Below, in pieces: positions 4,683 to 42,228 of a stretch of 64,000 bases of DNA (the stretch's first letter is position 1; the number at the start of each line of letters is the position of its first letter). The DNA is from Desulfuromonas acetoxidans DSM 684 (GTDB taxonomy: Bacteria > Desulfobacterota > Desulfuromonadia > Desulfuromonadales > Desulfuromonadaceae): positions 1 through 64,000 of the forward strand of contig NZ_AAEW02000009.1 of the NCBI RefSeq assembly GCF_000167355.1, written 5' to 3'. A program made the translations under genes and the position numbers. The notes below the pieces were generated by a model that was not told where the DNA came from, ran no database searches, and saw only the letters and a program-made list of their open reading frames with translations.

Positions 4683-4958
4683 TCAGGCGTTGTCCACTTC
4701 CGGTCCAAACTTTTTGAACACTTCAGCCACCCGGCTGATCGGAAGCTCTCCACGCATAGCGTGTTCCTGCACCGCAGCCACGTCAGGTGCAACATACACG
4801 CAATAAAACTTGTTCTCGGTGACATAGCTCTCTACCCAGGTCACCTGGTGATCCATGGCATCGACGATTTCGCACGCGCGATGGGCGATGCCTTCGAGTT
4901 GTTCGGCTGACAGCCAGCCGGCACCTTCGAGATCTCGTTCAACAACAAATGTTGGCAT
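4683..4958 (-). CDS. DUF4242 (nickel-binding-like) protein
   Basis: This 91-residue protein starts MPTFVVERDLEGAGWLSAEQ and continues with a ferredoxin-like alpha/beta pattern typical of DUF4242, whose Streptomyces member SCO4226 was described as a nickel-binding protein. The ATG at 4958 has GGAGGATGAT just upstream, so the longer open frame is not used. It lies 20 bases upstream of moaA and after the ThiF-like gene, inside a cofactor gene block. A role as a metal-binding accessory in tungsten or molybdenum insertion is an inference from position only. Confidence 0.72.
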   Translation of the reverse strand: MPTFVVERDLEGAGWLSAEQLEGIAHRACEIVDAMDHQVTWVESYVTENKFYCVYVAPDVAAVQEHAMRGELPISRVAEVFKKFGPEVDNA

Positions 4959-5050
4959 ATCATCCTCCACATTATCTTGTTTGAAAGAGAGCCACCCGGA
5001 GGCCAGCATCGATGCGGTTGTACCCTTATCTTCGCTAAGGGCTATCACCG

Positions 5051-6248: not shown

Positions 6249-7979
6249 TTAAAAGTTCCAGAATTCGTCGATCTCTTCGTCGCTGAAGTCCCAGATCGCG
6301 TTGTGCGGCGGAACCGGATCGGTCTTGAAGAACTCAGGCAGACGATCGTCCTTGTTGGTCATGCCGGCATCAAGATTGAACTGATGCTCCAGCTTGAGGA
6401 CTTTCTTACCCAGCTCGGTGACGTCATCACCGGTCAGCTCACACCCGAAGCGGGCGTTGATCATGTCGATCAATGCCGGCAGACACTCGGGAATATCCAG
6501 CGCCGGGAAGGCAACAAAGATACACATACCGGTGGAATCGATGGCTGCGGTAGCAATCTGCAGATTGCGCGACAGCTCAACCTGACCGTCTTTGCTCAGC
6601 GGATCAACAAAACCGCCGACATTGAGAATGTTGGTCGCGATAGTGTAACCGGAAGTGTGGTCTGCGCCCATGGTGCTGGTGGCATAGGTGATGCCGATAC
6701 CCTTAACACTGCGCGGATCGTAAGCCGGAATACCCTGGTTCTTGACAACAGGAACACGGGTCACGCCGTAGGTACGACCGACATTGCCGGCACCACCACC
6801 GAGGATACGACCCAGAGGGGTGCCTTTGCCGATCTCTTCGCGCAGCATGCGCAGAATCCCTTTGCCGTCACCGAACGGCAGGATGCCTGCTTCCATGGCC
6901 ACACCGAACATAACGACGGTTTCGATGGAATCAACACCGATATCATCCATGATGTTGTCGGCTTCAGCGATCTCGTCGAGGTTTTCAACACAGCAGTTGG
7001 CTCCCATGCCCCAGATGGTCTCGTACTCGAAACCGGAGGTGACATAGTTGCCGTCTTTGTCGTTGTATACCTGGGAGCACTGGATGATGCAGCCCTTATG
7101 GCAACCGTGCTTGGGGCTACCGCCACGCTCAACGATGGTGTCGTGCATGGTCTCACCACTGATGTTGTCGTGGGCGTCAAACTGGCCATAGGTGAAGTTA
7201 CGGGTCGGCAGGCCACCGGCTTCGTTGAGGATATTGACCAGAACGTTGGTGCCGTAGGTGGGCAGACCTTCGCCGCTGACCGGGTGGTCGAGCATCGCCT
7301 TAGCAAACACGCGGGCGGCTTTTTTGAAGGTGTCGGGGTCCGCGATGGGCACCGCACCGGCACCTTCGGAATCCACGGTCATGAACTTGATTTTTTTCGA
7401 ACCCATAACAGCACCCATACCGCCACGGCCGTGGCTGCGGATTTTGCCGTCGGGATCTTTAACTGAAATGTTGGCAGACGCCATCTTCAATTCGCCGGGC
7501 AGGCCGATGGTCATGACACCGATTTTCTTGTCATATTTTTCCACCATGGCATCGATGACAGCAAAGTTGCCGCTACCGAGCAGCTCGGACTCTTCGGCGA
7601 TGGTCACGCCGTCTTTGGTGATGTGCAGGCTGTAGAACTTGTCCTCTTTGGGCATGCCCTCAATGATCATCGCCTTGATGCCCATGCGGGCGAATTGCTG
7701 GGCGGTGGTGCCGCCGGCATTACTCTCTTTGATGCCGCCGGTCAGCGGACTTTTAGCGCCGCAGGACATACGACCGGATTGGGCCGCAGCGGTACCACTA
7801 AGCAGGCCAGGGGCAAAAACGAGTTTGTTTTTTTCTCCCAGAGGATGGCATTCAGGATCAACCTCGGTAGCTACGATGGTTGAGGTCAGGGCACGACCAC
7901 CGAGACCAGCCCATTCAGCCGGGACGTCTTCAACGGTGGTGGTCAGGTCGGTCATGTTAACGCGGAAAATCTTATCCAT
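6249..7979 (-). CDS. Aldehyde:ferredoxin oxidoreductase (tungsten/pterin enzyme)
   Basis: The enzyme oxidises aldehydes to carboxylic acids, or reduces acids in reverse, with ferredoxin as partner, using a bis-pterin tungsten site and a [4Fe-4S] cluster. The 576-residue protein begins MDKIFRVNMTDLTT like the family and has the N-terminal pterin-binding domain up to about residue 210, including GGRALTS and RSHGRGGMGAVMGSKK. Three cluster Cys residues are at 293, 297 and 301 (CHKGCIIQC), a spacing of C-x3-C-x3-C. A later Cys in DSTGMCIF fits the fourth ligand. AAGGAG precedes the ATG at 7979. A cofactor riboswitch lies upstream, and moaD, thiF-like and moaA genes follow. The choice of tungsten over molybdenum is inferred from the family and from the Tup-type transporter. 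Confidence 0.95.
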   Translation of the reverse strand: MDKIFRVNMTDLTTTVEDVPAEWAGLGGRALTSTIVATEVDPECHPLGEKNKLVFAPGLLSGTAAAQSGRMSCGAKSPLTGGIKESNAGGTTAQQFARMGIKAMIIEGMPKEDKFYSLHITKDGVTIAEESELLGSGNFAVIDAMVEKYDKKIGVMTIGLPGELKMASANISVKDPDGKIRSHGRGGMGAVMGSKKIKFMTVDSEGAGAVPIADPDTFKKAARVFAKAMLDHPVSGEGLPTYGTNVLVNILNEAGGLPTRNFTYGQFDAHDNISGETMHDTIVERGGSPKHGCHKGCIIQCSQVYNDKDGNYVTSGFEYETIWGMGANCCVENLDEIAEADNIMDDIGVDSIETVVMFGVAMEAGILPFGDGKGILRMLREEIGKGTPLGRILGGGAGNVGRTYGVTRVPVVKNQGIPAYDPRSVKGIGITYATSTMGADHTSGYTIATNILNVGGFVDPLSKDGQVELSRNLQIATAAIDSTGMCIFVAFPALDIPECLPALIDMINARFGCELTGDDVTELGKKVLKLEHQFNLDAGMTNKDDRLPEFFKTDPVPPHNAIWDFSDEEIDEFWNF

Positions 7980-8029
7980 GTGTGTCAGGCTCCTTTGCAG
8001 TGTCTTAACGTTAAGCGCATGGTAAGAAT

Positions 8030-8123
8030 CTCCTTTCCAAGACTGGGAGGCCACACCGTTTCCAATGCAACCCTGAGGCCTGTCCCCTTAAAGGCAACCT
8101 CCGTAGGGGGGGCAGGCTCGGAG
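8030..8123 (-). promoter_or_regulatory. Moco/Tuco riboswitch upstream of aor
   Basis: On the minus strand the leader runs CTCCGAGCC, then GGCCTCAGGGTTGC, GGAAAC, GGCCTCCCAGTCTTGG and AAAGGAG. CTCC and GGAG at the ends can close the outer stem. These are the conserved blocks of the molybdenum/tungsten cofactor RNA motif, and the same blocks in the same order occur at 10121-10212. It starts 20 bases after the adh terminator and ends 50 bases before the aor start. It would sense the cofactor that aor needs. Confidence 0.85.
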
Positions 8124-8142
8124 ATCTTGATAGTACTTAATT

Positions 8143-8173
8143 GAGAAAATAGGGAGAGGCCGAAGCCTCTCCC
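8143..8173 (-). terminator. Terminator after iron alcohol dehydrogenase
   Basis: On the minus strand GGGAGAGGC TTCG GCCTCTCCC forms a perfect stem with a stable tetraloop followed by TATTTTC. It separates adh from the riboswitch and aor. A possible minus-strand -10 box TACTAT at about 8130-8135 would start transcription close to the first riboswitch base, but no good -35 box is seen. Confidence 0.88.
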
Positions 8174-8226
8174 ATGCTGGTCGTTTCCGACGATAGTCCG
8201 TCAGATCAGCCCGTGAGGGCCGGGTG

Positions 8227-9390
8227 TTACATTGCTGCCTTGTAGATGTCGATCACTTGCTCCAACTTCGCTTTGAGGGGGTTGGTCAGCATGCAGGCAT
8301 CTTTCTGAGCGTTCTCTGCCATGATCTTCAGATCTTCTTCTTTAACACCCAGCTCGGTCAGACCGGCAGGGATACCAACGTCTGCGGACAGACGACGGAT
8401 GGCTGCGATGGCAACTTCAGCGGCTTCAACGTCAGACAGGCCGTCGATGTTCTCGCCCATGGCAACAGCGATGTCAGCGAAACGCTTCACGTTGGCAATG
8501 GAGTTGAATTCGCAAACAACCGGCAGCAGGACAGCGTTGCAGACACCGTGAGGCAGGTTGTAGAAGCCACCCAGTTGGTGAGCCATGGCGTGAACGTAAC
8601 CGAGGCTGGCGTTGTTGAATGCCATACCGGCCAGGTACTCAGCGTAAGCCATCTTGTCGCGGGCTTCCATGTTCTCGCCGTTGGCAACAGCTTGACGCAG
8701 GTACTCAGCGACCAGCTCGATCGCTTTGATCGCGCAAGCGTCAGTGATCGGAGTAGCGATGGTGGAAACATAAGCCTCAACAGCGTGAGTCAGTGCATCC
8801 ATACCGGTCGCAGCAGTCAGAGGAGCCGGCTTGCCAACCATCAGAACAGGATCATTGATCGCGATGTTCGGCGTGCAGCGCCAGTCAACAATGGCCATTT
8901 TAACGTGGGTGTCCGTGTTGGTGATGATGCAGAAACGGGTCATTTCAGACGCGGTACCTGCAGTGGTGTTGATGGCCAGGAACGGAGGCATGGATTTGGT
9001 GGACTGGTTCACACCTTCGAAATCACGAATCTGGCCGCCGTTACCAACAACCAGGCCTACACCTTTACCGCAGTCGTGGGAGCTACCACCACCCAGGGTG
9101 ATGATGCCGTCACACTTGTTGTCTTCGTAGACTTTAACGCCATCGGCAACGTTCTTATCTGTCGGGTTAGGCTCAGCGCCGTCAAAGATAACAGCTTCCA
9201 GACCGGCAGCTTCAACATAACCTTTGATGGTGTCGGCAACGCCCATGGCAGCCAGGCCAGCGTCGGTAACGATGAGCAGCTTGGTAGCGCCCAGTGCTTT
9301 TGCTTGATCGCCGGCTTCCTTGGCACAACCTACCCCCATCAAAGATACTGTCGGGATGAAGAAACCGTAAGTTTGATCTGCTAATGCCAT
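8227..9390 (-). CDS. Iron-containing (group III) alcohol dehydrogenase
   Basis: The enzyme interconverts alcohols and aldehydes with NAD(H) and Fe2+. The 387-residue length is normal for the family. It has the dinucleotide-binding GGGSSHDCGKGVG motif near residue 97 and the iron-binding signature around AMAHQLGGFYNLPHG with conserved His residues. CAAAGGAGAG precedes the ATG at 9390. It is the first gene of the leftward block and is followed by a terminator and then by aor. Together they would oxidise an alcohol to an aldehyde and then to an acid. A sigma-54-type promoter lies 160 bases upstream. Confidence 0.95.
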   Translation of the reverse strand: MALADQTYGFFIPTVSLMGVGCAKEAGDQAKALGATKLLIVTDAGLAAMGVADTIKGYVEAAGLEAVIFDGAEPNPTDKNVADGVKVYEDNKCDGIITLGGGSSHDCGKGVGLVVGNGGQIRDFEGVNQSTKSMPPFLAINTTAGTASEMTRFCIITNTDTHVKMAIVDWRCTPNIAINDPVLMVGKPAPLTAATGMDALTHAVEAYVSTIATPITDACAIKAIELVAEYLRQAVANGENMEARDKMAYAEYLAGMAFNNASLGYVHAMAHQLGGFYNLPHGVCNAVLLPVVCEFNSIANVKRFADIAVAMGENIDGLSDVEAAEVAIAAIRRLSADVGIPAGLTELGVKEEDLKIMAENAQKDACMLTNPLKAKLEQVIDIYKAAM

Positions 9391-9551: not shown

Positions 9552-9567
9552 AGCAACTTGGATGCCA
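9552..9567 (-). promoter_or_regulatory. Sigma-54-type promoter for adh
   Basis: The minus strand reads TGGCAT CCAAG TTGCT. The -24 GG and -12 GC elements have the exact sigma-54 spacing (TGGCAC-N5-TTGCW, one mismatch). It faces the iron alcohol dehydrogenase, leaving a leader of about 150 bases. A sigma-54 activator is encoded in the opposite gene block. Confidence 0.75.
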
Positions 9568-9615: not shown

Positions 9616-9921
9616 GTGGAACACCACGTTGTTGTCTACAGAATCGGCAAGTTACGACTTGTCGTCAACGCGACGATTTGATCCAGTTTGGAACACAATG
9701 CAACAGCTCGTCACACACGGATCACCAGAATGGAACACCCCACAAATCCTTTTTCATGTGACAAACCCGGAATATCCGGCCTGCCCCGACCGCACCAACC
9801 GTTCCCAATTGGCACAGAGCCAGCTCAAGTTCGTGACAATGCGTGCCACTTTGTTACACTTTTATTGCGTTCGTCCTGACACTGAAAAAAGAGGTCCACG
9901 GCTCTGGTACAGATTGGAACA
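9616..9921. promoter_or_regulatory. Candidate activator-binding region (TGGAACA repeats, palindromes)
   Basis: TGGAACA occurs four times in one orientation, at 9617, 9689, 9731 and 9915. The first copy is embedded in the palindrome GTGGAACACCAC. At 9649-9669 two overlapping inverted repeats occur, CAAGTTACGACTTG and ACGACTTGTCGT. The region lies between two outward-facing sigma-54-type promoters, which is where an enhancer-binding activator would bind. Which element is the true operator is not known. No gene is seen between 9391 and 10313. Confidence 0.55.
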
Positions 9922-10054: not shown

Positions 10055-10120
10055 CGTATACAGGCTGCCATAAAAAAGAGCTGTCGGTTGCCCAAAGCAC
10101 CGACACGAAAATAGTTACAA

Positions 10121-10212
10121 CTCCGAGTCTGTTCACCTACCGGCACATCCCAAGGTGGCAGGCCTATGGGTTCTTCGGGAAACTGGCGAGCCTCCCACTC
10201 TTGGAAAGGAGC
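10121..10212 (+). promoter_or_regulatory. Moco/Tuco riboswitch upstream of tupA
   Basis: The leader has CTCCGAG at its 5' end, then GGTGGCAGGCCTATGGGTT, CGGGAAAC, GAGCCTCCCACTCTTGG and AAAGGAG. It shares all main blocks with the element upstream of aor and with the known molybdenum/tungsten cofactor RNA motif. It precedes tupA by about 100 bases. Cofactor excess would be expected to turn down metal uptake. Confidence 0.86.
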
Positions 10213-10313
10213 TGACGGACATTAATCATCAAGGTGACTGGTGCCGTTTTTTGTCTTTCCCGGCGATGGAGGGTCATTTTATTTCAACCCCTTTGTTTGA
10301 AGGAAAAATTGTT

Positions 10314-11120
10314 ATGAAACAACTGCGAATGGTACTCTTTTCATTGATGATCGTCCTGCTGCTGGCTGGGGCCGCCTTGGCTCAGGAGCACCTGAAGCTG
10401 GCCACGACCACATCGACGGAAAACTCCGGTCTGCTCAGTGCTCTGCTGCCGACCTTTGAAGCGCAGAACAACTGCAAGGTCGACGTGATTGCCGTGGGTA
10501 CCGGCAAGGCAATCAAGCTGGGTATGGCTGGCGATGTGGATGTCATCCTGGTCCACGCCCGTGCCAAGGAAGATGCATTTGTCGACGGCGGCTACGGCGT
10601 TGATCGTCAGGATGTGATGTACAATGATTTTGTCGTCGTCGGTCCGCCAGCAGACCCGGCAGGCATTAAAGGCACCAGTGACGTGGCTGCGGCTCTGGCG
10701 AAAATTGCCCACAGCAAAGCGACCTTCGTCTCACGTGGTGATGAGTCTGGCACCCACTTTAAAGAGTTGGCACTGTGGAAAGCTGCGGATTTAAAACCAG
10801 CCGGCGACTGGTATCTCGAAGCGGGGCGCGGCATGGGGGAAGTTCTCACCATGGCCGATGAGCGCCAGGGCTATGCTCTGACCGACCGCGGCACCTACAT
10901 TGCCTATCAGGGCAAAATCGACCTGCAGGTTGTTGTTGAAGGCGACAAGCGGTTGTTTAACCCGTATGGCGTCATTCCGGTGAATCCAGCCAAGCATCCG
11001 CATGCAAAGTATGAACTGGCCACGGCGTTTGCCAATTTTCTCACCGGTGAAACCGGGCAGAAGATGATTGACGGCTACCGGAAAAACAACCAACAACTGT
11101 TTTTCACCTACGAGAAATAA
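10314..11120 (+). CDS. tupA: Tungstate ABC transporter, substrate-binding protein
   Basis: This 268-residue periplasmic protein has a clear signal peptide (MKQLRMVLFSLMIVLLLAGAALAQ). The mature part begins EHLKLATTTSTENSGLL, and the Thr-Thr-Thr-Ser motif is the anion-binding signature of TupA. It is followed by tupB and tupC. AAGGA precedes the ATG at 10314. A cofactor riboswitch lies in the leader. The assignment to tungstate rather than molybdate rests on the TTTS motif and the aldehyde oxidoreductase context. WtpA or ModA types look different. Confidence 0.93.
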   Translation: MKQLRMVLFSLMIVLLLAGAALAQEHLKLATTTSTENSGLLSALLPTFEAQNNCKVDVIAVGTGKAIKLGMAGDVDVILVHARAKEDAFVDGGYGVDRQDVMYNDFVVVGPPADPAGIKGTSDVAAALAKIAHSKATFVSRGDESGTHFKELALWKAADLKPAGDWYLEAGRGMGEVLTMADERQGYALTDRGTYIAYQGKIDLQVVVEGDKRLFNPYGVIPVNPAKHPHAKYELATAFANFLTGETGQKMIDGYRKNNQQLFFTYEK

Positions 11121-14896: not shown

Positions 14897-16546
14897 ATGG
14901 GCAACAAGGAACATCTGTTACAGCAACTGACCGGCGTGGATTCTTCCAAGCTCAACTACTATGTTGAGCTGAAGAAGAAAAACGAGGAGATTCTCAAGCA
15001 GAACACACTGCTGGAGATTCTCCATCAGTTGACCCGTGACATCAATATCCATATGACGATTGAGGATATTCTTGATCGGACGTTTCTCAAGCTGCCTCAG
15101 GCGATCCCCTGCGACTTCCTCAGCGTCGCCACCCTGTCCATGGAACGCCTCAGCCTTAAGGCTGCCGTACCCAGTGACTTCTGCACCATGGACGAACTGC
15201 CCAAAGACTCTTACAGCTGGCAGGTAATCCGCAGCAAAAAAGCCACCAGCTTTGATCCGGCCACCAGTTATCTGGCCCAAATGCACCGCAAAGATATCTA
15301 CCCGATTGAGCTGAAATCTCTGGCGATCGCGCCGATGTTTGTGCGTTCCGAGGTGATCGGCGTGCTGCTGGTGGCCAGTTTCAACCATGATGCGTATCAG
15401 GAGGCGGAGCTGTCCGCCATTCAACATCTGGCCGACCATTTGTCGATCAGTATCCAGAATTCCCGCCTGTACACCCAGGTTTCACGGGCAAAACAGGAGT
15501 GGGAGCAGACCTTCCGCGCCGTGACCGACCCCATTGTGCTGGTCGACCTCGATTACAATGTGATCCTGCATAACGGCCACTTGCCGGAACAGATGCGCAA
15601 AACCTGGGAACAGTCGAACAGCAACAAATGTTATGCCTGTCTGCATGGCCTTCTCGAACCCTGTCCGGACTGCCCGATGGAGGAGATGCAGAAAACGCTG
15701 CAGCCACAGCATATCCGAATTCATGACGAATCGGGCCTGACTCTGGACCGTTCCCACTATCCCGTCCTCACCGACAAAGGACAGATGGTGGCCATGACCA
15801 TCATCCTCAAGGACGTGACGGAAAAGGTCAAAATGGAAGCCCAGTTGGTACAGTCGGCCAAGCTGGCCGCCATTGGCGAGATGGCTGCCGGTGTCGCCCA
15901 TGAGCTGAACAGCCCGATGACCGTCATTATCGGCACCGCACAACTGCTGGCACGTGAACTGGCGGAACAAAACGTCTCTGAAGAGATTGACGATATCATC
16001 AACTGCGGGCTGCGCTGTAAGCGCATTATCCAGAACCTGCTGACATTCTCACGCCAGGATCAGATTGCCGTCAGCTCCACAGATCTCAACAGTGAGGTGG
16101 AACGGGTTCTGAGCCTGATTCAATACCAGATCAACCGCAACCAGATCCGGATCATTGCCGATCTCGATCCGAAGCTGCCGACCATGACCGCCAACGGTCC
16201 GCAGATTCAACAGGTGCTGACCAACCTGCTGGTCAATGCCCGTGATGCTCTTGACAGCCTTAACGATGAAGAAAAAGTGATCCATGTTCGCACCCATGTG
16301 CGGGAAAAAGACGGCAAGCGCTGGGCGATTATCAGTGTCGAGGATAACGGCTGCGGCATTGAAGAGAAGGATCTGCAAAAGATCTTTACACCGTTTTTCA
16401 CCAGCAAGGATGCCACCAAAGGCACCGGGCTGGGTTTGTCGGTGAGCCTGGGCATTGCCCAGGGACATAACGGCACCATCGAAGTGAAGAGCACACCGGG
16501 ACAAGGCAGCACCTTTTCACTGGTCTTGCCGGAAACCGAAGAATAA
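14897..16546 (+). CDS. GAF-PAS sensor histidine kinase with Cys-rich PAS
   Basis: This 549-residue soluble kinase has no membrane segment. It starts with a coiled coil, then a GAF domain (about residues 40-195), a PAS domain (about 205-310), a HisKA domain with the phospho-acceptor H335 in AAGVAHELNSP, and a HATPase domain with DNGCGIEEKD and GTGLGLSVS. The PAS domain holds four Cys residues at 245, 248, 256 and 259 (CYACLHGLLEPCPDCP), which could bind a metal or a redox centre. GAGGAGG precedes the ATG. The next gene is its likely response regulator. The signal is unknown, though an aldehyde, alcohol or redox signal would fit the operon. Confidence 0.9.
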   Translation: MGNKEHLLQQLTGVDSSKLNYYVELKKKNEEILKQNTLLEILHQLTRDINIHMTIEDILDRTFLKLPQAIPCDFLSVATLSMERLSLKAAVPSDFCTMDELPKDSYSWQVIRSKKATSFDPATSYLAQMHRKDIYPIELKSLAIAPMFVRSEVIGVLLVASFNHDAYQEAELSAIQHLADHLSISIQNSRLYTQVSRAKQEWEQTFRAVTDPIVLVDLDYNVILHNGHLPEQMRKTWEQSNSNKCYACLHGLLEPCPDCPMEEMQKTLQPQHIRIHDESGLTLDRSHYPVLTDKGQMVAMTIILKDVTEKVKMEAQLVQSAKLAAIGEMAAGVAHELNSPMTVIIGTAQLLARELAEQNVSEEIDDIINCGLRCKRIIQNLLTFSRQDQIAVSSTDLNSEVERVLSLIQYQINRNQIRIIADLDPKLPTMTANGPQIQQVLTNLLVNARDALDSLNDEEKVIHVRTHVREKDGKRWAIISVEDNGCGIEEKDLQKIFTPFFTSKDATKGTGLGLSVSLGIAQGHNGTIEVKSTPGQGSTFSLVLPETEE

Positions 16547-16622
16547 TTTAAGCCGTTCACGCGCCCCCAACGACGGCGACAAACAGCCTGCGAGGAATCG
16601 TTTGCAAACCGGGAGAGCACCT

Positions 16623-18161
16623 TTGGCCACAATCAATATACTGATTATCGATGACGAAACGGATGTCTGTAATTTTTTCCGTCGCCTGCTCAAGTACAAA
16701 GGCTATGAGGTCACCACCGCGACCAATGAGCCGCAGGCGATCCAGGCGCTGGAGGACAACAATTTCCAGGTCGCACTGGTCGATCTCAAACTGCCGGACA
16801 CCGACGGTTTGACTTTGCTATCTCTGATCAAGAGCCGTCAGCCGGAGTGTGAAGTGATCATCATGACCGGTTACAGCACCATCAAAACAGCGGTCAGTGC
16901 CATGCAGCAGGGCGCTTATGAGTACGTGGAAAAACCCTTTGAAGAGATCAGCGAAATTGAAGAGTTGATTGACCGCGCCGTGGCCTACGGCACCAGCCGG
17001 CAGCAGGGCAACCAGTCCGAAGAGGAATGGGCGGAGGTCGCCGATTCAGTGGGGTTCAAGGTGGGCAACTCCCTGTCCATGCGCCGTACCGTATCGCTGG
17101 CCTATAAGATTGCCAAGAAAAACATCAACGTGTTGATCCAGGGCAAGACCGGTACCGGCAAGGAGGTGATGGCGCGCTTTATTCACGCGGCATCCAACCG
17201 GGCGGATCAGTCGTTTATTGCCGTCAACTGTGGCGCCTTGCCGGAAAACCTGCTCGACAGTGAGCTGTTCGGCCATGAAAAAGGCGCGTTTACCGGCGGT
17301 CATCGCACCCGGCGAGGGATTTTTGAGCTGGCCAACCACGGCACCCTGCTCCTCGATGAGATCGGTGATGCCAGCCCGTTGATTCAGGTCAAACTGCTGC
17401 GGGTCCTGGAAACCGGCGAGTTCATGCGGGTCGGCGGCGAAACACCGATCAAGACCAATGTGCGGGTTATCGCCGCAACCAATGTCGATCTGGAAAAAGC
17501 CATTGATGAAAAAACCTTCCGCGAGGATCTCTACTATCGGCTCAATGTGGTTAAGGTGGAGATCCCATCGTTGGAAGAGCGTCGTGAAGATATCAGCCAG
17601 TTGGCCGAATTCTTTGCCAAACAGCTCAACCCCAACCTGTCGCTCGCTCCAGCGACCCTCGAACGACTCAACGGTTATAGCTGGCCGGGCAATATCCGCG
17701 AGCTGGCCAACTGTATGCGTCGCGCCATTGTACTGTGTAACGACGATGTGATCCAGCCTAACCACCTCGGCGAGCGGCTCGGCAGTCGCAACGAAGAGAG
17801 CAGCCTGTCCGCCGCCCCTGACGATGTCGCTCAACTGCCTGAAAATCCACCACAATCGCTGGAAAACTTCTGGGAAAAATACGGCAATGAAGAGGTCCTT
17901 GAAGCGATGAGTCCCGGGGAGCTGCATCAGATGTGGCACTCGCTACGCGGCCTGGAAAAAACCCTCACCTCCATCATGGCGCGTAAAAATATGCTGCCGC
18001 CGAGTCATCAGGGGCTCAAGGACAGTGAAAAGGAAACCATTCAGGAAGCACTGGAACAGCACCGCTGGAACATTACTGAAACCGCCAAGAGCCTCGGCAT
18101 TGCCCGCAACACGTTGCACCGGAAAATTAAAAAATATAATCTACGTTTTAAGGAGTCCTGA
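16623..18161 (+). CDS. Sigma-54-dependent response regulator
   Basis: This 512-residue NtrC-type activator has a receiver domain (phospho-acceptor D54 in ALVDLKLPD), a sigma-54 AAA+ domain with Walker A GKTGTGKE and the sigma-54 contact loop GAFTGG, and a C-terminal Fis-type helix-turn-helix (WNITETAKSLGIARNTLHRKI). A linker of about 100 residues between AAA+ and HTH has no known motif. The start chosen is the TTG at 16623, seven bases after GGGAG; an earlier TTG at 16602 lacks a good site. It probably receives phosphate from the kinase just upstream and acts on the sigma-54-type promoters at 9552 and 10039. Confidence 0.92.
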   Translation: MATINILIIDDETDVCNFFRRLLKYKGYEVTTATNEPQAIQALEDNNFQVALVDLKLPDTDGLTLLSLIKSRQPECEVIIMTGYSTIKTAVSAMQQGAYEYVEKPFEEISEIEELIDRAVAYGTSRQQGNQSEEEWAEVADSVGFKVGNSLSMRRTVSLAYKIAKKNINVLIQGKTGTGKEVMARFIHAASNRADQSFIAVNCGALPENLLDSELFGHEKGAFTGGHRTRRGIFELANHGTLLLDEIGDASPLIQVKLLRVLETGEFMRVGGETPIKTNVRVIAATNVDLEKAIDEKTFREDLYYRLNVVKVEIPSLEERREDISQLAEFFAKQLNPNLSLAPATLERLNGYSWPGNIRELANCMRRAIVLCNDDVIQPNHLGERLGSRNEESSLSAAPDDVAQLPENPPQSLENFWEKYGNEEVLEAMSPGELHQMWHSLRGLEKTLTSIMARKNMLPPSHQGLKDSEKETIQEALEQHRWNITETAKSLGIARNTLHRKIKKYNLRFKES

Positions 18162-28310: not shown

Positions 28311-28684
28311 GGTCGAAGAAGGACAGACGGTCGCCGGTTTCGCAAGAAACGGGAGGAAAGTCCGGGCTCCGCAGAGCAGGATGGTTCCTAACGGGAACCG
28401 GGGGTGACCCCAGGGACAGTGCCACAGAGAGAAGACCGCCTGCTTTGGCAGGTAAGGGTGAAAGGGTGAGGTAAGAGCTCACCAGCTCTGGTGGTGACAT
28501 CAGAGGCTCGGTAAACCCCATCTGGAGCAAGGCCAAATAGGGAAGCGTTTGAGAGCGGCTCGCTCGAAGCTTTCGGGTTGGCTGCTTGAGGCCGTCGGCA
28601 ACGGCGGTCCTAGAGGAATGATCGTTGCCCGTCTCCGGGTAACCGGATTCGGGTACAGAACCCGGCTTACGGCCTTCTTCGACC
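28311..28684 (+). ncRNA. rnpB: RNase P RNA (type A)
   Basis: RNase P RNA is the ribozyme that trims the 5' leader of tRNA precursors. The outer helix is GGTCGAAGAAGG with CCTTCTTCGACC at the far end. The conserved GAGGAAAGTCCGGGCTCC lies near the 5' end, and its partner ACAGAACCCGGCTTA near the 3' end; GGTAAACCCC and GAGAGAAGACCGCC are also present. The length of about 374 bases is normal. A short T-stretch after the last helix may be its terminator. Confidence 0.96.
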
Positions 28685-42112: not shown

Positions 42113-42228
42113 CGCCGTCTCATCTGTCCCCTTGCGGGGGTGGAATTAGCACCTGTCATCCTGAACGTCAGGACCGGTTGCTGTGGTTTCAAAGGGCCAT
42201 TCCCTCCACCACTCGTGATAACACGGTT
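42113..42228 (-). promoter_or_regulatory. SAM-I riboswitch
   Basis: The minus strand reads TTATCACGAGTGGTGGAGGG, AATGGCCCTTTGAAACC, CAGCAACCGGTC, GGTGCTAATTCC and GGGACAGATGAGAC. These are the conserved cores of the SAM-I (S-box) aptamer in order, including the K-turn GATGAG end. It precedes a terminator and metX, as expected for methionine gene control. Confidence 0.96.

Follow-up and report, generated by a model that had tools for sequence, protein, structure and literature searches.

The RNA between the alcohol dehydrogenase gene adh and the aldehyde:ferredoxin oxidoreductase gene aor belongs to the Moco/Tuco riboswitch class and lacks the P3 stem, as does a second copy in front of tupA. 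All positions refer to the window, that is, the whole stretch of 64,000 nucleotides that was analyzed. Both the class and its occurrence before aor were already known; what is new here is that the expression platforms are split by gene function, with an own Shine-Dalgarno (SD) sequence and no terminator at aor and with terminators at most other targets.

The model that we propose, with confidence somewhat above even, is that of a P3-less riboswitch of the tungsten-cofactor type located inside an adh-aor transcript, acting as an ON switch for aor and as an OFF switch for tupA. No published ON-type Moco/Tuco switch before aor was found in the open literature, which was the scope of the search.

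Identification and structure of the RNAs

When the whole window was scanned with Rfam, RF01055 (Moco/Tuco) matched at 8014–8135 on the minus strand (74.0 bits, E = 5e-16), 5' of aor, and at 10109–10227 on the plus strand (58.8 bits, E = 1.5e-11), 5' of tupA, both above the gathering score of 36. The original prediction had placed a cofactor riboswitch at 8030–8123 and had named the Moco_RNA model as the check for both stretches; both matches are significant, and 8030–8123 proved to be exactly the segment from P1 to P1', with the P1 5' strand CUCC at 8120–8123 and P1' GGAG at 8030–8033 (minus). The near-identical RNA expected before tupA is indeed of the same class, with its P1' GGAG at 10208–10211 (plus). 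A third genomic copy lies on another contig, 5' of a second aor gene. Elsewhere in the window, an RNase P RNA (28315–28684, plus) and a SAM riboswitch (42117–42224, minus) were recorded.

The comparison of P3, suggested earlier as the means of telling Moco from Tuco subtypes, gave the same result for both window RNAs: the P3 positions of the RF01055 alignment are deleted, as in the Tuco subtype. According to the alignment and the covariation test, the multistem core, in which P2 and P4 covary, and the GAAA tetraloop are present, and both RNAs precede cofactor-related genes, as members of RF01055 do. In Regulski et al. 2008 (PMC2408646), the P3-less subtype is assigned to Tuco on correlative grounds; the tungsten cofactor is accordingly the predicted ligand here.

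A covariance model built on 16 RNAs of the window's genus detected 54 further RNAs among 80 aor loci of named genomes. In 71 aligned RNAs, 93% of the pair cells were standard, a percentage biased in the model's favor by the fitting of the alignment to it; firmer evidence comes from the double changes, with 144 such cells compared to 39 in shuffles. Slid structures paired in just 29–56% of cells.

Gene order and transcript organization

The aor aptamer lies inside an operon for ethanol oxidation and is flanked by genes of two kinds. Upstream lies adh (8227–9390, minus; Pfam Fe-ADH), encoding an iron-containing alcohol dehydrogenase, and downstream aor (6249–7979, minus; Pfam AFOR_N and AFOR_C), encoding a tungsten aldehyde:ferredoxin oxidoreductase, followed by MoaD, ThiF and MoaA genes. 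On the other side, tupA (10314–11120, plus), encoding a tungstate-binding protein, is followed by tupB, tupC, moeA and a second adh (Pfam, NCBIfam); the names MoaD, ThiF and TupABC are best matches below the strict NCBIfam equivalog cut-offs. The aor-moaA run also includes an SCO4226-like gene (4683–5027, minus), of a nickel-responsive family.

Among the 80 aor loci from other organisms, adh was found directly 5' of aor in 41, with the RNA in between in 30 and absent from 11, one of the latter being a Thermincola record. The conserved position of the RNA indicates that adh escapes and that aor is the target, which agrees with the earlier proposal that the iron enzyme is left unaffected and the pterin enzyme is placed behind the RNA.

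A sigma-54-like promoter, TGGCATCCAAGTTGC, lies upstream of adh at 9552–9566 (minus). Such a site was found upstream of adh in 37 of 39 relatives, compared to 2.7% of shuffles, and in only one of 28 adh-aptamer spacers of relatives. Where aor occurs as a solo copy in the window's genus, a sigma-54-like site of its own lies 74–117 nt ahead of the aptamer. In the aor2 leaders of the genus (L002), an additional long hairpin-rich stretch separates this site from the aptamer. Four TGGAACA boxes occur in the adh/tupA divergent region (9617–9915, plus), where an activator of the sigma-54 promoter might bind. A histidine kinase and a sigma-54-dependent response regulator (14897–18161, plus; Pfam) form a plausible activator pair for the adh promoter.

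The adh terminator that had been predicted before the RNA corresponds to a real hairpin at 8152–8173 (minus), GGGAGAGGCTTCGGCCTCTCCC with the tail TATTTTCTC, terminator-like with an interrupted U tract; a second small hairpin, between adh and this one (8186–8205, minus), keeps its pairing while its sequence varies among congeners. The clean boundary implied by that prediction did not stand. The terminator-like hairpin ends 16 nt ahead of the aptamer (16–20 nt across the genus), and neither a sigma-54-like nor a sigma-70-like promoter was found in this gap on the minus strand of the window, nor anything promoter-like between adh and the aptamer. Since no promoter was found there, transcription from the adh promoter probably continues into aor, past a hairpin that is probably leaky.

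It is decidedly unlikely that adh and aor are separate transcription units, with an efficient adh terminator at the hairpin and an aor promoter of its own: the window's hairpin, like that of most congeners, does carry a U-rich tail, but the short gap lacks any promoter match, and the spacers of relatives, ranging from 40 to 304 nt, hold strong hairpins without a U tract where they are shortest (40–54 nt). A conserved intergenic terminator as a general boundary was rejected, being present in just 7 of 28 relatives. Judged from promoter and hairpin sequences, read-through is the more probable arrangement, and the simplest reading is a single sigma-54 transcript in which adh, the leaky hairpin, the riboswitch and aor follow one another, so that the riboswitch would be internal to one transcript.

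Expression platforms of aor and other leaders

An order-wide search covered 136 genomes, 67 of which gave matches; the fetched regions were scanned with the covariance model, yielding 181 distinct RNAs. A terminator-like hairpin after the aptamer was present in 0 of 97 aor leaders and in 69 of 84 other leaders (48/53 for tup, moe and moa genes, 3/5 for aldehyde dehydrogenase genes and 18/26 for others). The Fisher value of 1e-35 for this split is overstated, as related sequences are not independent; the contrast nonetheless holds across many genera. Some leaders (L169, L180 and L218) were classed as terminator-less although their hairpin and U tract narrowly miss the filter.

Most terminators have a CUUUCC-like 5' arm complementary to the aptamer sequence GGAAAGG. 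Complementarity of this kind is the usual antiterminator logic of an OFF switch.

The aor leaders conform to neither familiar platform. No intrinsic terminator separates aptamer and gene in any of them, as transcription attenuation would demand, and the aor SD is not part of P1', as it would be in a moaA-type platform. In the window it is AAGGAG (7990–7995, minus), at least 35 nt away from P1', and the distance from P1' to the ATG has a median of 49 nt in 78 aor leaders. With a platform lacking a terminator, control looks translational and would act directly on aor. The earlier expectation that aor and the cofactor genes respond together is thus retained for aor as the target; moaD, thiF and moaA would be affected just through polarity or coupling.

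Predicted switching of the aor leader

In the window, P1' and the following linker, GGAGAUUCUUACCAUG (8018–8033, minus), can pair with aor codons 1–6, CAUGGAUAAGAUUUUCC (7964–7980, minus), in a putative anti-start helix of −19.2 kcal/mol, a value equalled by 10 of 5000 shuffled linkers. Five leaders of the genus form such helices of 14–16 bp with the aor start, at −17 to −19 kcal/mol. The P1 state (−59.1 kcal/mol) and the anti-start state (−59.5 kcal/mol) of the window are nearly isoenergetic, and those of four congeners lie within 3 kcal/mol; as the congeners are close relatives, they and the window count as about one observation. This pairing of about 15 bp between the released P1 3' strand with its linker and the aor start predicts an ON switch.

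In the free fold of leaders from other relatives, it is mostly CCUCCC or CUCC of the aptamer that pairs with the aor SD. Compared with swapped leaders taken from unrelated genes, formation of the aptamer made the aor start cheaper to open in 21 of 25 sequence clusters (p = 4e-4). When a second set of aor leaders was analyzed, this held for 8 of 14 clusters, which was not significant (p = 0.33), and the energy gain in the window's own leader was only about 1–3 kcal/mol, in predictions that take no account of kinetics or tertiary contacts. The second set weakened the case for a universal ON energy signal, and ON for aor is therefore treated as favored, not established.

The weak energy gain that the window shares with the second set, together with the 11 adh-aor operons lacking any RNA, would suit an aptamer relic, with the RNA conserved, aor translation unresponsive and sigma-54 control as the sole regulation. 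The strong covariation, the invariant core in 71 sequences, and the retention of the RNA both between adh and aor and before solo aor copies make a relic very improbable.

A further alternative concerns a short leader ORF, MRLTLRHCKGA (7985–8020, minus), which starts 9 nt after P1' GGAG and stops 5 nt before the aor ATG. If P1, closed by the bound cofactor, hid the SD of this 11-codon ORF, and aor were translationally coupled to it, aor would be repressed like moaA in E. coli. An AUG or GUG at +9 from P1' was found in 12 of 12 leaders examined (window's genus and L019; GUG in L009 and L019), the stops lie near the aor start, and the geometry is that of moaA, where the ligand represses (PMC2408646). 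The anti-start helix could account for the leader start codon as a by-product, CCAUG being the complement of the aor start CAUGG; in L004, L009 and L019, however, the start codon is present without CCAUG, a point in favor of the ORF. Several points speak against repression through the ORF: aor possesses a strong SD itself, the position of the ORF stop ranges between 18 nt upstream of and 28 nt beyond the aor start, AOR of Pelobacter increases with tungstate, and the listed leaders of other relatives, which have the same operon and RNA, showed no such ORF. We consider this OFF arrangement unlikely; limited to the window's genus and L019, the ORF was demoted from main device to rival.

In the favored ON model, transcription would start at the sigma-54 promoter before adh and produce an adh-aor transcript carrying the P3-less Moco/Tuco riboswitch inside, from which adh would be translated irrespective of cofactor. 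As long as cofactor is absent, the aptamer's 3' half would be available for burying the aor start, in the window by pairing of P1' and linker with aor codons 1–6, and in relatives mostly by pairing of aptamer CCUCCC or CUCC with the aor SD. Cofactor binding would close P1, uncover the aor start, and thereby turn aor ON, the sign favored by the present evidence.

Predicted switching of the tupA leader

The sister RNA before tupA, 2 kb from the aor copy, would act in the OFF sense and shut down tungstate uptake. It is followed by a terminator-like hairpin with a U tract (10214–10252, plus), seen also in L003 and L014 but not throughout the genus, and by a CUUUCC element (10255–10260, plus) capable of pairing either with GGAAAGG of the aptamer or with the tupA SD, AAGGAAAAA (10300–10308, plus).

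In all five tupA leaders of the genus, formation of the aptamer made the tupA start costlier to open, since CUUUUCC is then paired with the SD of tupA; the sign is opposite to that for aor. The difference for the window's own tupA was small (8.1 with the aptamer formed and 7.7 otherwise). The folds of these leaders suggest the OFF direction. The earlier reading gave no sign of regulation; the present evidence favors ON for aor and OFF for tup, not one common response.

Tungsten-related leaders across the order

In one relative (L081:2185–3738), a Tuco-class RNA stands directly 5' of an NAD-type, tungsten-independent aldehyde dehydrogenase gene, with P1' as its SD; a second Tuco RNA and then aor come next. 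Tuco-class RNAs with a terminator-like platform precede aldehyde dehydrogenase genes in L210, L143, L153, L180 and L169; a group among these enzymes, beginning MAQAM..., resembles CoA-acetylating enzymes. Tandem RNA copies occur in L031, L109 and L166.

It is possible, though on balance doubtful, that one aptamer class with opposite signs directs an exchange of isozymes at the RNA level, turning aor ON and turning OFF tungstate uptake, pterin synthesis and the tungsten-free aldehyde dehydrogenases able to replace aor (those of L081 and L210, with CoA-acetylating-type genes in L143, L153 and L180).

Tuco-class RNAs were also found 5' of TonB-receptor-like and porin-like genes (L131, L140 and L184; L031, L159, L109 and L137), which suggests that outer-membrane uptake is under the same control.

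If the ON model is true, a class described so far as repressing cofactor supply also activates a cofactor-using enzyme, from inside an operon, and apo-AOR would be made only when it can be filled with cofactor. The order-wide split of platforms provides ready pairs of leaders with the same aptamer and opposite signs, by which the identity of the ligand (Moco or Tuco) could be addressed.

Comparison with known systems

The closest published case is Pelobacter carbinolicus, where Moco riboswitches were predicted before aorA1-3 (PMC3543383). This organism belongs to the same order, and its homologous aor genes stand behind RNAs of the same class; the available part of that paper gives no mechanism, sign or intra-operon analysis, unlike the present work. 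The riboswitch-led AORs Pcar_0456 and Pcar_0665 are reported to rise with tungstate while ADH is constitutive (PMC3543383, PMC4275255). These data fit the split between iron and tungsten enzymes and the ON sign, with the qualification that Pcar_0456 and Pcar_0665 are not necessarily post-adh copies; the protein levels could also be caused by instability and turnover of apo-AOR instead of RNA control. In the same tungstate data, the acetylating dehydrogenase Pcar_2758 is also increased, which, if its gene is led by a Tuco RNA, would conflict with the idea of isozyme exchange.

The window RNAs share the core sequence and the stems P1, P2, P4 and P5 with the RF01055 Moco RNA, and with its P3-less subtype the missing P3, the association with tungsten genes, and the terminator platforms before transport and synthesis genes (Regulski et al., PMC2408646). 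They differ in that the aor leaders have neither a terminator nor an SD in P1, the RNA is internal to an operon, and the sign proposed for aor is ON, where the accessible text of that paper proposes only repression.

The E. coli moaA Moco riboswitch has the same aptamer class, and there too P1' coincides with the ribosome binding site of the ORF that follows. The moaA RNA possesses P3, its P1' serves directly as the SD of the gene under control, and the ligand represses; in the window, P1' provides the SD for a tiny ORF, and aor has a separate one. By analogy, a leader ORF whose SD lies in P1' looks like the OFF arrangement of moaA and counts against the ON model.
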